A DNA stretch of 64,000 nt from NCBI GenBank assembly GCA_903822545.1, contig CAIJPN010000017.1, positions 124,001 to 188,000 on the forward strand, read 5' to 3'. Origin of the DNA: an uncultured Anaerolineae bacterium. GTDB lineage: Bacteria; Chloroflexota; Anaerolineae; Anaerolineales; Villigracilaceae. The notes beneath the pieces are model-generated. The model did not search any database. It was given only the letters and a program-made list of their open reading frames with translations, and was not told the origin of the DNA. The translations under genes were made by a program, and so were the position numbers. Of this stretch, positions 43,546 through 58,047 are shown in pieces. Position 1 is the first letter of the stretch. Each line of letters starts with the position of its first letter.

Positions 43546-44733
43546 TTATTGTAAATTTTCAAAAATACACGCCGCGCCCATACCGCCGCCGATGCACATG
43601 GTGACCATGCCATACTTCGACTTGCGCCGCGCCATTTCGTAGATGAGTTGGGTGGTCAGCTTGGAACCGGTGCAGCCGAGTGGGTGCCCAAGCGCCATCG
43701 CGCCACCGTTGACATTGACCTTTTCCGGGTCGATGCCAAGCGTTTTAACCACGGCCAGTCCCTGGGCTGCGAAGGCTTCGTTCAACTCGAACAGGTCGAT
43801 GTCTTCGAGTTTTAGCCCGGCCTTTTCCAGCGCCTTGGGGATGGCCACCACCGGGCCGATGCCCATGTAATCGGGTTCGACACCGCCCACGGCGAAGGAG
43901 ACGAACCGCGCCAGGGGTTTTAGTCCCAGCTTTTCGGCTTTTTCCGCTGACATGACGATCACGCCTGCCGCCCCATCCGACATCTGGGAGGAATTGCCAG
44001 CGGTGATGGTGCCGCCTTCTTTGAAGGCCGGTTTCAGTTTGGCAAGTCCTTCCAGGGTGGAATCTCCGCGAGGGCCTTCATCCCGCTTCAGGGTGAACTT
44101 CTTGGTGACGGGCTTTTCATCTGCATCCAGTTCGACCAATTCTACATCAACGGGAACCAGCTCCGGGTCGAACAGGCCAGATTCCACCGCTTTGGCGGCC
44201 AGCAGGTTCGAGCGCAGGGCAAAGGCATCCATATCGGCGCGGCTGATTTCGTAGCGCTCCGCCACGTTTTCAGCGGTCAGGCCCATATTGGTGTAGTAGT
44301 GCGGCAAATCCTGGGCAAAATGCGGGTTGGGCGAGAATTTGTAGCCCATCATCGGCACCATCGACATCGATTCGGTGCCGCCAGCGATAGCCACATCGAT
44401 GTCGCCCGATTTGATGGCGTAGGCAACGTGCGCAATGCTCTGCACACCAGATGAGCAGTAGCGGTTGATGGTTTCGCCCGGCACTTCGATGGGCAGCCCG
44501 GCCCGCAGGGCGATCATGCGCGCCATGTTGAGGCCTTGCTCGCCTTCGGGGAAGGCGCAGCCAATAACAACATCATCGATTTCGGCGGGGTTCAGCCCAG
44601 GCGCGCGCTTGAGCAAATCCTGGATGACCAGCGCCATCAAATCATCTGGCCGGACGGTGGCCAGGGAGCCTTTCTTGGCCTTCCCCACCGGCGTCCGCGC
44701 CGCAGCAACGATAACAGCATCTCGATTATTCAT
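43546..44733 (-). CDS. fadA: acetyl-CoA acyltransferase (thiolase)
   Basis: A thiolase of 395 residues. The acyl-accepting cysteine is in [14 protein letters not shown]. The second active-site parts are [16 protein letters not shown] and [13 protein letters not shown], and NEAFAAQG is also present. It cleaves 3-ketoacyl-CoA with CoA to release acetyl-CoA, the last step of beta-oxidation. AAGGAG precedes the ATG. Upstream in the operon is the GxxExxY insertion, then the fused hydratase/dehydrogenase gene. Confidence 0.93.
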
Positions 44734-44760: not shown

Positions 44761-44800
44761 TTGTACACGGATTACGCGGATTTCATGGATTTACACGGAT
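44761..44800. repeat. CACGGATT half-element downstream of the GxxExxY gene
   Basis: Tandem CACGGATTA/CGCGGATTT-like units starting TTGTACACGG. It is inverted relative to the copy at 45282-45322, so the two bracket the GxxExxY gene. Confidence 0.75.
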
Positions 44801-44808
44801 AAGGCTTT

Positions 44809-45252
44809 TTACTTTTTTATCCAGTTCAGGGAGCCTTTGCGCTCGTTGTCGAGCACTTTGCGTTTGAACGTGGCGGATTTTCCAAAATTTAGCACGTAAC
44901 CGACTTCAAGTTCGGTTGCTTTGAGATAGTTGAGTAGCTGCGCCTCATGTTCTTCAATGATGCCGTCTTTGACTACCTTGAGTTCAAGCAAAATCACATC
45001 GTTGACAATCATATCGGCCAAGTATTCGCCAATCACGATGCCGTGATAGTACACCTTGATTGGAATTTGTTCGAGAACCTTGAAGCCCATCTCACGCAAG
45101 ACAAGGGCAAACGCTTTTTCGTACACTTTTTCGGTGAAACCAAATCCGAGTTCGTTATGCACTTTGTAGAAGGCGTCAATGATTTTGCTGCTCAATTCTG
45201 CATGTTTGCCTTCAAACATTGGCTTGCCAGGCGTCATTTTGGGGTACATCAA
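44809..45252 (-). CDS. GxxExxY protein (PD-(D/E)XK-like nuclease fold)
   Basis: A protein of 147 residues. The family signature is GFGFTEKVYEKAF. The block GEYLADMIVNDVILLELKVV carries a putative D...ExK catalytic core of the PD-(D/E)XK superfamily. A downstream helix with HEAQLLNYLKAT is typical of these small proteins. Family members have no proven function. It sits inside a beta-oxidation operon, where it does not belong metabolically, and is bracketed by inverted CACGGATT repeats. Two nearby ATG codons are possible starts; AAGGAG favours the one at 45252. Confidence 0.85.
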   Translation of the reverse strand: MMYPKMTPGKPMFEGKHAELSSKIIDAFYKVHNELGFGFTEKVYEKAFALVLREMGFKVLEQIPIKVYYHGIVIGEYLADMIVNDVILLELKVVKDGIIEEHEAQLLNYLKATELEVGYVLNFGKSATFKRKVLDNERKGSLNWIKK

Positions 45253-45281
45253 CTAACTCCTTACGCCAGTAAAACCTAAAA

Positions 45282-45322
45282 AAATCCATGCCAAACCGTG
45301 TAATCCGTGAAATCCGTGTCCA
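45282..45322. repeat. CACGGATT half-element upstream of the GxxExxY gene
   Basis: Units AACCGTGTAATCCGTGAAATCCGTG ending near TCCAA, the reverse complement of the downstream half in kind. Confidence 0.75.
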
Positions 45323-45327
45323 ATAAA

Positions 45328-47712
45328 CTAATTGCGCAACGGTTTACCCGTCTGCAACAGGCTCCACATTCGGGCTTGCGTTTTCTCTTCACCGCACAGG
45401 CTCAAGAACGCCTCGCGCTCCAAATCCAGAATGTACTGCTCACTCACCCAGGCCGGTTTGCTGATGTTGCCACCCGCCAGCACGTTGGCCAGCTTGTTGG
45501 CGATATGGTTATCATACTCGCTGATATACCCACCCGCCTTAAACATGAATGCGCCGACTTCCACCGCGCCTAGCATGTCACGGCCAGGGGCATAAATCTT
45601 CTCTGGTGCGGGTGGGGTATAGCCCGTGTTGACCATGTGCAACACTTCCTTCTTGGCTTCGGTCAGGACATGCTCACGGTGCATCACCACGCGGTCAGCC
45701 GGGCCAAGGATGCCCATCTGGCGGGCTTCTTCGGCGCTTGTGGCAACCTTCGCCTGCCCGATCTGGATAAAAGCGCGCTGCAAATACGGGAAAATCTCGC
45801 CATATTCGGTTTTCATCGGCGGGTTCATCACGCGACGCATGATTTCCTTTGTGCCGCCGCCCGCCGGGATGACGCCCGCGCCCATCTCCACCAGGCCGAT
45901 GTACAACTCACCAGCCGCCACCACACGCGAGGCGTGCATGGTCACTTCACAGCCGCCGCCCAGCGCCAGCCCGGCAGGGGCCACCACCACCGGCTTCGGC
46001 GAGTAGCGCATCCGCATATTCAGCCCTTGCAGCTTGCGGATCGCCCCATCGAGCGTCTCCCACATCCCCTGCTGCGCCGCGACCACCACCATAAACAGGT
46101 TCGCGCCCGCGCTGAAATTATCCGCTTCCGAACCAATCACCAGCCCATCGAAATCGGTTTCGGTGCGGTTCAGGGCTTCATTGACGATCTCAAAAATATC
46201 ATCGTCGAGCGCGTTCATCTTGGTATGGAATTCCACACAGCCCACGCCATCCCCGATGTCGTAGAGCGTCGCGCCCGCATTTTGCGTGACGATGGTTTGC
46301 TTTTTGAGCATTACCAGGCTGGATGTGCTGGTGAATGGGATATACGCCCGTTTGGTGACATCGTACACGCCTGTTTTTTGGTCGCCGTTATATTGGTAGA
46401 AGGATTCGCATCCGCCCTGGAGCATGTCTTCCACCCATTGGGCCGGAGTATACCCTTCAGTTTTCATCTGCGCGACGGTTTCGCGGACGCCGAGCAGATC
46501 CCACATCTCGAAGTAGCCTGCCTCGTGGCCGAAACCCCAGCGCATGGCATCATCCAGCGGTTTGGCGGTATCTGCCACTTCGGGGACAATACTGGCAGCG
46601 TACTGGAAAGCCTGGAGCGTAAGCGCGCGCACCAGTTTCGCGCCTTTGTCATCCGCCTTCAGAAACACCTTTAGACGGTCACCCAGCCCCTCGACATCTT
46701 TCGCCGCTTTGACGGAATCAAATCTCGGCTTGGTGGGGGCTTCATGTTCCAGCGTGGCGAGATTCAGCGACCAGAATTCCTTCTTCCCATCCGCACCGCG
46801 CACTTCCTTGTAAAACCCGACTTTGGCTTTGTTGCCCAGCCAGCCGCGCTCAACCATGGTGTGGATGAGCGTGTTGGGCCTCTCGGCGGCCAGGTATTTT
46901 TGCCCGAGCGTGTCATACGGGATGAGCGGGGCGAGGTTCTTGCCAACGTGCTCCCAGACATCCACGCCGACCAGGTCGATCAGGCGGAACATGGCGGTTC
47001 GGGGACGACCAGCCAGCGGGCCCATCAGCGCATCAACTTCATCCACGGTGTAGCCATTTTCGAGGATGAAATCCATGGCAAACGCGCCTGTGCCAAAGGC
47101 CAGCCGGTTGCCGATGAAGTTGGGCGTATCTTTGCACAGCACGATACCTTTTCCGAGCCGGTACTCGCCAAAGTGGCTGATGAACTCGGTTACGGCGGGC
47201 AGGGTATCAGCGGTGGGGATGATTTCGAGCAGTTTCAGGTAACGGGGCGGGTTGAAAAAGTGCGTGCCCAGGAAATGCTGTTTGAAATCATCGCTGCGCC
47301 CCTCGGCGATGTCTTTCAGCGGAATCCCGGATGTGTTCGATGAGACGATGCTGCCCGGTTTGCGGACTTTGTCGATGCGCTCGACCAGGTTTTGCTTGAT
47401 TTTCAGGTTTTCGATGATGACTTCAATGATCCAATCCGCCTTGCTGATGGCGGACTCGAAATCATCTTCGAGATTGCCTGTTTTGACCAGCGAATGCTGG
47501 TCGGACGAGAAAAACGATGCCGGGCGCGACTTTTTGGCTGCATCCAGCCCGGCGTTGACGATTTTGTTGCGGGCGGCTTTATCTTCGCCCGCGCCTTTGG
47601 GCACGATATCGAGCAGCGTCACCGGCACACCAGCGTTGGCCAGGTGCGCCGCAATCGCCGCGCCCATTACGCCCGAACCGATGACAACTGCATTGTGGAT
47701 TTTATATTTCAT
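45328..47712 (-). CDS. fadB: 3-hydroxyacyl-CoA dehydrogenase / enoyl-CoA hydratase
   Basis: A bifunctional enzyme of 794 residues. The dehydrogenase is first: NAD site VVIGSGVMGAAIAAHLA, then SNTSGIPLKDIAEG, HFLGTHFFNPPRYLKLLEI. Its C-terminal domains have FIGNRLAFG and GPLAGRP. A crotonase domain ends the protein (about 480-794) with EADNFSAGANLF and ALGGGCEVTMHASRVV plus EMGAGVIPAGGGTKE. The order is the reverse of E. coli FadB (hydratase first), as in the long mycobacterial and bacillar FadN-type fusions. The start at 47712 is set by AGAAAGGAAA. It catalyses the middle two steps of beta-oxidation. Confidence 0.92.
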   Translation of the reverse strand: MKYKIHNAVVIGSGVMGAAIAAHLANAGVPVTLLDIVPKGAGEDKAARNKIVNAGLDAAKKSRPASFFSSDQHSLVKTGNLEDDFESAISKADWIIEVIIENLKIKQNLVERIDKVRKPGSIVSSNTSGIPLKDIAEGRSDDFKQHFLGTHFFNPPRYLKLLEIIPTADTLPAVTEFISHFGEYRLGKGIVLCKDTPNFIGNRLAFGTGAFAMDFILENGYTVDEVDALMGPLAGRPRTAMFRLIDLVGVDVWEHVGKNLAPLIPYDTLGQKYLAAERPNTLIHTMVERGWLGNKAKVGFYKEVRGADGKKEFWSLNLATLEHEAPTKPRFDSVKAAKDVEGLGDRLKVFLKADDKGAKLVRALTLQAFQYAASIVPEVADTAKPLDDAMRWGFGHEAGYFEMWDLLGVRETVAQMKTEGYTPAQWVEDMLQGGCESFYQYNGDQKTGVYDVTKRAYIPFTSTSSLVMLKKQTIVTQNAGATLYDIGDGVGCVEFHTKMNALDDDIFEIVNEALNRTETDFDGLVIGSEADNFSAGANLFMVVVAAQQGMWETLDGAIRKLQGLNMRMRYSPKPVVVAPAGLALGGGCEVTMHASRVVAAGELYIGLVEMGAGVIPAGGGTKEIMRRVMNPPMKTEYGEIFPYLQRAFIQIGQAKVATSAEEARQMGILGPADRVVMHREHVLTEAKKEVLHMVNTGYTPPAPEKIYAPGRDMLGAVEVGAFMFKAGGYISEYDNHIANKLANVLAGGNISKPAWVSEQYILDLEREAFLSLCGEEKTQARMWSLLQTGKPLRN

Positions 47713-47726
47713 GGTTTTTTCCTTTC

Positions 47727-47824
47727 TGTACACGGATTTGACGGGTTTCACAGACGTACACGGTTTTTTTTTATTTTTAAGCTCTATCCGTGTTTATCCG
47801 CGTCATCCGTTTAATCCGTGTACA
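47727..47824. repeat. complete CACGGATT palindrome
   Basis: Left arm 47727-47763 and right arm 47787-47824 are inverted imperfect copies, with outer ends TGTACACGG and CCGTGTACA and an AT-rich loop. It is the gene-free version of the arms around the GxxExxY gene. Confidence 0.8.
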
Positions 47825-57650: not shown

Positions 57651-57740
57651 AGTACACAGATGAAACAGATTTCACGGATTTACACGGATAGAGCATTAAA
57701 AAATCCGTGTTTTTCCGCGTCATCCGTCTAATCCGTGCCC
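57651..57740. repeat. complete CACGGATT palindrome
   Basis: Left arm 57651-57690 (GTACACAGATG...TTACACGGATA) and right arm 57704-57740 (TCCGTGTTTTTCCGCG...ATCCGTGCCC). Confidence 0.75.
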
Positions 57741-57929: not shown

Positions 57930-58047
57930 ACCACGGAGACACCGAGTACACGGAGAAAAAGCCTTACAAACTCCGTGCTCTCCGTGTCTCCGTGGTGAAA
58001 ATCTTAAATCTTTACCCGTGTTCATCTGCGTAATCCGTGTTTTCCGT
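57930..58047. repeat. CACGGAG palindrome plus CCGTG tail
   Basis: ACCACGGAGACACCGAG...(57930-57955) pairs with CTCCGTGTCTCCGTGGT (57971-57996). A tail with GTGTTCATCTGCGTAATCCGTGTTTTCCG follows (58018-58047). Confidence 0.7.

Follow-up and report, generated by a model that had tools for sequence, protein, structure and literature searches.

What is a small nuclease-like gene doing inside a β-oxidation operon, between two inverted copies of a short dispersed repeat? The question arises from a 64,000-nucleotide stretch of an uncultured Anaerolineae genome (hereafter the window), in which a GxxExxY gene lies on the minus strand between fadB and fadA. A first-pass annotation had described this gene as nuclease-like, with half-elements on both sides that are inverted relative to each other, and had pointed to the same halves joined without a gene at two other places. 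These descriptions stand: the two arms face the gene, and both joined versions are real (Table 1). In profile searches, the protein belongs to TIGR04256 (118 bits against a curated cut-off of 35) and PF13366 (124 bits against 22). Its open frame starts at a TTG codon, with ATG as the next codon.

Table 1. The cassette, its neighbors and the gene-free palindromes in the window.
Feature	Coordinates	Strand	Evidence or remark
fadA (thiolase), downstream neighbor of the cassette	43546..44733	-	Site compared in 28 genomes
Arm 3' of the gene: CACGGATT, CGCGGATT, CATGGATT, CACGGAT; gene-facing	44766..44800	+	Sequence inspection
GxxExxY / PDDEXK_3 gene, 147 aa	44809..45252	-	TIGR04256 2e-34, PF13366 4e-36
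Arm 5' of the gene: CACGGATT, CACGGATT, CACGGTTT, CATGGATT (minus-strand reading); gene-facing	about 45281..45320	-	Limits by eye
fadB-like gene, upstream neighbor of the cassette	45328..47751	-	Served to locate orthologous spacers
Gene-free palindrome, CACGGATT-type words, upstream of fadB	47730..47822	.	Limits by eye
Gene-free palindrome, CACGGATT-type words	57653..57739	.	Limits by eye
Gene-free palindrome, 3+3 words, mostly CACGGAG	57932..57994	.	Absent from the first-pass list

The flanking elements had been taken for halves of one palindrome. The inverted repeats are real, but each half is an array of 7–9 nt words spaced 8–10 nt apart and not a simple octamer half. In the arm on the 5' side, for example, two words are clean and two are degenerate. 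The window contains 11 occurrences of CACGGATT where 2.5 would be expected, and 0 of 100 shuffles reached a count of 11. Words match C-R-C-N-R-A-K and commonly stand three to a side, a grammar that is fixed in large part by the regular expression itself, which also permits T as the third letter and any letter as the seventh. Spacings between words (n = 553) are 9 nt in 336 cases, 8 nt in 119 and 10 nt in 89. Families of other words, such as CATGATT around L003, L043 and L065, were left unlabeled. CACGGAG, which predominates in the third gene-free palindrome, also predominates around a different GxxExxY copy in this genome (L002). By inspection, the window palindromes have TACACGGATT-like ends and those of Nostoc end in GAACCGC. 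A scan of the window against Rfam at the gathering score gave 0 matches, and PADLOC models of anti-phage defence, compared with two GxxExxY proteins, matched 0 families.

The AF2 model of the window protein (pLDDT 89, 63 rows) has a PD-(D/E)XK-like fold. D80, E90 and K92 are invariant in 17 rows and are followed by Q105-x3-Y109, which gives the pattern D...ExK plus Q-x3-Y; across the 63 rows D80 and E90 are invariant, K92 is at least 90% conserved and Q105 is mostly conserved. Residue 21, which becomes important below, falls in the first helix of the model (residues 18–35). The best Foldseek match is 4ic1 (SSO0001), which we take to be a Cas4, with an E-value of 4.6e-4 (VIA Z 9.3, rmsd 3.8, 105 residues aligned), and other nucleases follow at scores in a middling range, among them the Hjc structure 1gef, which aligns with Z 6.6 and rmsd 3.4 over 86 residues. 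The likeness to Cas4/RecB-like nucleases and Hjc resolvases lies in the predicted fold and in D...ExK with Q-x3-Y, but a sequence search of the PDB with the window protein found no match at E 1. By profile and predicted fold, we predict that the GxxExxY protein is a small PD-(D/E)XK nuclease of the Cas4/RecB-like type.

In the open-licence PMC literature, a scope that leaves preprints outside, we found no description or biochemistry of a function for the TIGR04256/PF13366 family. The titles of that literature on REP/RAYT, dispersed and word repeats, STRR and IVP held no link between the family and repeats, and a search of it for six repeat strings found no mention. A GxxExxY gene adjoining a reverse transcriptase has been described, in the accessible part of that paper without mention of repeats (PMC8934634).

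The arrangement around the window gene recurs widely in the family. The window's own genome holds six PF13366 genes, and on inspection every one of them lies between inverted word arrays, with a word that differs from copy to copy; four of the other copies share only 28–36% with the window protein. Bracketing was measured by aligning the 350 nt before a gene locally with the inverted 350 nt after it and taking the best score, which is 17.5 for the two window arms (L005). The first-pass annotation had proposed that such repeats should be more common at GxxExxY genes than elsewhere, and they are far more common. A score of at least 13 is reached by 69 of 76 genes in the window's genome and its near relatives, compared to 20 of 722 same-size control intervals from the same loci; 78 genes had been found and two dropped at contig ends, one gene is counted twice (L023 is one gene of L048), and the set, which includes 40 extra stretches out of roughly 145 places, covers part of the copies. 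Among named genomes from many phyla, the same score is reached at 63 of 75 genes and 22 of 1375 controls, and a score of at least 18 at 51 of 75 genes and 0 of 1375 controls. These 75 remain from 79 loci after four were dropped at contig ends; they were picked by two peptide patterns and are therefore not a random sample of the family, 32 of them are cyanobacterial, many from one orthologous site, and L088 also appears in the near-relative set, as L018. Counted by hand, 30 of the 32 cyanobacterial and 33 of the 43 other loci score at least 13, the latter including two (L157, L161) whose inverted sequence is not of the word type. A clear inverted repeat is missing at 7 of the 76 near-relative genes and 12 of the 75 in named genomes.

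A palindrome scoring at least 12 lies inside at least one flank of 28 of the 76 near-relative cassettes and inside both flanks of 11; the remaining cassettes either have an array on each side whose pairing partner lies only beyond the gene, or lack a clear array. Genes also occur in clusters, with three in L048 (G018), a locus that also has repeated blocks of word arrays, and two in L049 (G006). In six genomes (G002, G004, G007, G016, G018, G024), a GxxExxY domain lies inside long open frames of about 546–571 aa.

Presence of the gene also goes with the number of arrays in a genome. Counts of exact three-word arrays (spacing 9, 9) were compared across 41 genomes: the 34 gene-bearing ones have 0–125, the seven others 0, 0, 1, 1, 2, 4 and 12 (Mann-Whitney p 0.002, Spearman 0.60). 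The exceptions are G021, with 12 arrays and no gene, and four gene-bearing genomes with zero exact arrays. Out of sample, the bracketing result was weak: 3 of 7 plasmid records, all below 60% identity, score at least 13, against 5 of 69 controls. In one of these loci (L359, Sphingomonas parapaucimobilis), fabD and fabG flank the GxxExxY gene, and a CGCGAAG half-array is visible on just one of its sides. One scan of viral contigs found no GxxExxY relative.

The first-pass annotation had also proposed a comparison of the fadB-fadA spacer among relatives, and the site does vary. Among 28 genomes with a fadB gene, the window's own included and representing related species and genera rather than strains, the spacer holds a GxxExxY cassette in three. 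In one (G014, L301), a 91-nt spacer holds a joined, gene-free palindrome of the same word type, the second arm of which is a single word. Eleven spacers measure 13–38 nt and ten measure 58–170 nt, several of these with other palindromes; a few of the lengths include the first codons of fadA. The other three spacers contain a different gene, encoding a PF05635/TIGR02436 four-helix-bundle (23S rRNA IVP) protein, one of the three barely above the cut-off. This gene, too, is flanked by inverted words of another kind, clearly in L314 and L321 and on one side in L305.

The PF05635 genes were scored in the same way. Of 30 loci (L325–L354), six were dropped at contig ends, and 16 of the remaining 24 score at least 13, compared to 4 of 144 controls. 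Judged by eye, their words are mostly about 7 nt long (CAGTNAT, GTTGGTA and others). The likeness extends to inverted short-word arrays around a gene and to the very spacer that three of these genes occupy, but the protein is unrelated and the words are different. Since PF05635 genes are bracketed likewise, the arrangement is not unique to the nuclease family, and nuclease activity may not be the shared cause of bracketing.

What the first-pass annotation had not foreseen is that different genes carry different words and that protein and word change together. We compared each protein column with each word letter in 88 thinned loci, eight of them gapped at residue 21. Threonine occupies this position in 27 of 34 loci with G at letter 5 and in 0 of 54 with A, so that all 27 Thr-21 loci have G. 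The information z-score for this pair is 24.2, and the next column reaches 8.7. Unthinned, among 117 loci, 32 of 33 Thr loci have G and one has A, and Thr is missing in 17 of 49 G loci. By eye, the plasmid loci fit in 5 of 7 cases, which are all those where both positions can be read: Thr goes with G in L355, L356, L358 and L361 (L358 and L361 having only one word per side) and Ala with A in L359.

A second association links residue 124 to letter 7, with Gly in 25 of 27 loci with T and Asn in 49 of 59 with G (z 19.8, next column 14.9). It follows a deep split of the protein tree, which was built from 154 rows and is poorly resolved. Letter 7 changes 5 times on this tree, against at least 25 times in 300 shuffles, and after thinning to below 60% identity (36 loci) it changes 3 times against at least 7. 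By the same change-count measure, letters 2 and 5 show no clear tracking of the tree after thinning to below 60% identity. Contrasts independent of the tree were underpowered, with about 2.2 agreeing and 0.1 opposing among 5 supported pairs. All columns nevertheless share one tree, and kinship alone leaves the outlying residue-21 column unexplained. The simplest reading of the coupling, and one that is well supported at this level, is that each GxxExxY protein would specifically recognize its own word.

The genus Nostoc offers a view of such changes at a single site. We queried 53 Nostoc genomes with one cassette and its flanks and read 31 cassettes, most of them with a whole-query identity to the reference of 85–94%. 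Each falls into one of four classes, CGCCAAG, CGCAGAG, CGCAAAG or CGCGAAG, and as far as they can be read both arms belong to one class; the calls were made partly by eye (chiefly L169, L185, L171, L175, L176 and L215), and some arms mix related words. Threonine stands at the residue-21 position in 10 of 10 CGCAGAG alleles and 0 of 21 others. The clearest pair is L193 and L190, which agree at 325 of 330 nt in the gene body and 385 of 401 columns in the upstream flank. Agreement falls, however, to 44 of 78 columns across the 5' arrays and first codons, and the two alleles also differ in the 3' array and in residue 21. With both ends changed and the middle unchanged, this difference is not explicable by a single exchange.

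Nostoc species also differ in whether they have the cassette at this site, again a comparison between species and not strains. In nine loci (L197–L205), it is absent, and the same flanks enclose a different gene, about 1.7 kb in all; in six more (L206–L210, L216), only one flank falls within the fetched stretch. None of these 15 loci is a simple empty site. Nor did we see by eye a target-site duplication at the Nostoc site or at the window spacer, where flanks are diverged or rearranged.

How might two arms come to share a word? In five loci, an insert that breaks the array is mirrored in both arms, which are nearly identical: 76/77 in L096, 84/94 in L116, 61/66 in L130, 52/54 in L169 and 61/65 in L185. 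The inserts of L130, L169 and L185 resemble one another, so a small, target-preferring element might have entered the arms separately; yet within each locus both arms hold the same variant. We also followed two solo half-arrays that occupy fixed sites, each read in 30 of 53 Nostoc genomes (the best matches; at the second site, 12 further genomes with a match split at the array were left unread). An array, sometimes degenerate, is present in all 60 cases. Its words range from three CGCAGAG through mixed states to three CGCCAAG in matches that are 86–95% identical as a whole, and at the second site the spacer letter mostly changes along with the word. Together, the mirrored inserts and these in-place word differences suggest that array DNA is copied; it seems to pass from array to array. 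Copying between the arms of one locus could be ordinary host correction of quasi-palindromes, for which the GxxExxY protein would not be needed. An extra half-array in L173/L174, considered as a candidate solo insertion, lies in a region that aligns poorly, so no insertion is proven there.

The relation between solo words and cassettes is uneven. Where the genome has a CGCCAAG cassette, full triplets of this word occupy 4 of 6 genome-sites, compared to 0 of the remaining 54 (Fisher 3e-5, with genome-sites that are not independent and with genomes of unread cassette among the 54). Among Nostoc genomes with a read cassette, only 9 of 18 and 8 of 17 show agreement between this cassette's word and the majority word of the solo arrays, each genome being represented by one cassette and not by every GxxExxY copy. 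Agreement by word is 5/6 for CGCCAAG, 12/14 for CGCAGAG, 0/10 for CGCAAAG and 0/5 for CGCGAAG, and CGCAGAG is the commonest solo word whatever cassette is present. Genome-wide counts of exact CGCCAAG arrays are 14, 25, 5, 22, 61 and 12 for the six Nostoc genomes whose cassette has this word, compared to 0–4 in the other 47. The former are G043, G102, G052, G053, G094 (judged from a fragment) and G097 (with inserts), all classed by the cassette at the queried site. CGCGAAG shows no such amplification: three cassette genomes have 2, 2 and 5 copies (2 in each being the cassette's own arms) against 0–4 elsewhere, and a fourth, whose arms have inserts, has 0 exact arrays. Some Nostoc half-arrays (L217, L219, L229–L233, L235 and L236) lie, by eye, inside an apparent MITE with TATAGCAGTCCTAAATGAGT-like ends, and part of their dispersal in this genus may come from that TATAGCAGTCCTAAATGAGT-ended MITE.

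The first-pass annotation had likened the gene-bearing and gene-free elements to full and empty versions of one element, with the logic of REP/RAYT pairs. RAYT enzymes are Y1/HUH transposases. The GxxExxY proteins match only PF13366 and TIGR04256 and show no match to a Y1/HUH tyrosine transposase. In REP/RAYT systems, a small gene lies near or between inverted copies of its paired dispersed repeat, the inverted doublets are predicted to form hairpins, and RAYT is named as a tyrosine transposase (PMC3116915). The GxxExxY gene is likewise flanked by inverted copies of its paired repeat. REPs, however, carry an end tag, GTAG or CGTC (PMC3733652), which on inspection the GxxExxY repeats do not have; CGTC is present within two solo palindromes of the window, between words and never at an end. 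The degenerate grammar of about three words per arm and the in-place word change are further differences. Full and empty versions and the REP/RAYT-like logic both fit, but the data favor rewriting and copying of arrays already present over plain insertion. We propose that the GxxExxY system may be RAYT/REP-like in logic and unrelated in enzyme.

A likeness in the repeats themselves comes from Geobacter metallireducens, in which putative global regulator sites of classes 1–4 are opposite-strand paired arrays of tandem 7–8 nt words, at variable distance in class 1 (PMC2700814). Paired inverted word arrays are thus already described. The Geobacter words are GTTGCTYN and MTYCTGA, IHF/HU-type regulators are proposed for them, and the accessible part of the paper names no gene inside the pairs (PMC2700814).

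The computation supports the association of gene and arrays, the coupling of protein and word, the in-place change of solo arrays, the mirrored inserts and the presence or absence of cassettes at orthologous sites. We suggest, as a reading that could well be right but falls somewhat short of probable, that the gene and its two arms form one cassette of a protein-repeat system in which the protein reads the words, cuts them, and leaves repair to copy the arrays. The GxxExxY protein would recognize a short word repeated about three times per arm, with residue 21 of its N-terminal helix as the reader of letter 5 and perhaps residue 124 as that of letter 7. Similar words also stand elsewhere in the genome, in gene-free palindromes and half-arrays. 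It would then nick or cut the word arrays, or the cruciform that the two arms could form, and repair would copy one array onto another. Such copying would keep the arms identical, could turn further arrays into cognate ones, and might occasionally carry the gene between sites. We infer cleavage as the start of copying from the fold, which is that of a nuclease, and from CGCCAAG, the one word that is amplified with its cognate cassette, the rest of the tested words lacking such amplification; DNA binding, and the protein as the cause of copying or drive, would go with it. The repeat-mobilizing role and the hairpin cutting considered in the first-pass annotation would be putative activities of the same protein.

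Could the protein instead be a sequence-specific regulator, or a nucleoid-type protein, whose binding sites are the arrays, whose arms autoregulate and whose arrays are copied by host recombination? Such a protein would account for both the protein-word coupling and the matched arms, it would explain without any drive the solo words that differ from the cassette's word, and the Geobacter arrays of paired inverted 7–8 nt words were themselves put forward as global regulator sites (PMC2700814). The conservation of the nuclease residues D80, E90 and, for the most part, K92 and Q105 speaks against this, since a pure regulator would have no need of them. A word such as CGCGAAG, which is found in few places outside the cassette's arms, would also make a poor regulon, and the mirrored inserts indicate copying and not selection on sites. 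We consider a regulator rather unlikely. Transposition makes a different use of the same parts: the arms would be terminal inverted repeats, the PD-(D/E)XK protein a transposase, as TnsA is the PD-(D/E)XK component of Tn7, and the gene-free palindromes newly inserted MITEs. Inverted ends around one gene, gene-free derivatives, and presence or absence at orthologous sites with breaks at or near array ends are what such an element would leave. What makes it unlikely, to a greater degree, is that no target-site duplication was seen, that the copies in the window's genome are as divergent as noted above, with four sharing only 28–36% with the window protein, and that the 60 Nostoc solo loci (best matches) all hold arrays that differ in word, which is rewriting and not insertion.

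PD-(D/E)XK homing endonucleases are known, and a gene of this kind might invade gene-free palindromes by cutting them, each cassette being immune once the gene splits its palindrome. The joined palindrome of G014, set beside three genomes with the gene between arms of similar words in the window spacer, could represent a target and its invaded form, though the change may have run either way. It is, however, a single pair, one candidate among 28 genomes, and the one-word second arm of the palindrome may mean that it arose by deletion. Many of the Nostoc solos that were read are half-arrays that form no palindrome, and cassettes with a palindrome in at least one flank (28/76) or both (11/76) would not be immune. 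Homing therefore strikes us as improbable. Still less credible is that the palindromes are moved by another enzyme, perhaps a RAYT or a recombinase of the host, with the GxxExxY genes riding along. The unrelated PF05635 family, also carried in palindromic arrays, would suit a passenger role, but a passenger would not explain why one residue predicts a word letter across phyla, or why word and residue differ jointly where the gene body is almost the same.

We return to a cassette whose protein would read, cut and so prompt the copying of its arrays. Taken more broadly, and with some added reserve about whether it is true, our proposal is that unrecognized, self-propagating repeat systems span phyla, in which a PD-(D/E)XK protein with a residue-to-base code may rewrite arrays into its own word, protein and repeats would co-evolve, and PF05635 four-helix-bundle IVP proteins may have taken up the same arrangement with other words. 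A large family of so far undescribed function would thereby gain a concrete role as a reader of specific DNA words, and widespread palindromic word repeats would gain a candidate protein partner. Specificity becomes predictable from sequence under the residue-21/letter-5 rule. Should the protein drive array conversion, these cassettes would constitute a selfish repeat system independent of known transposases, one that could help explain how dispersed repeats change sequence together.
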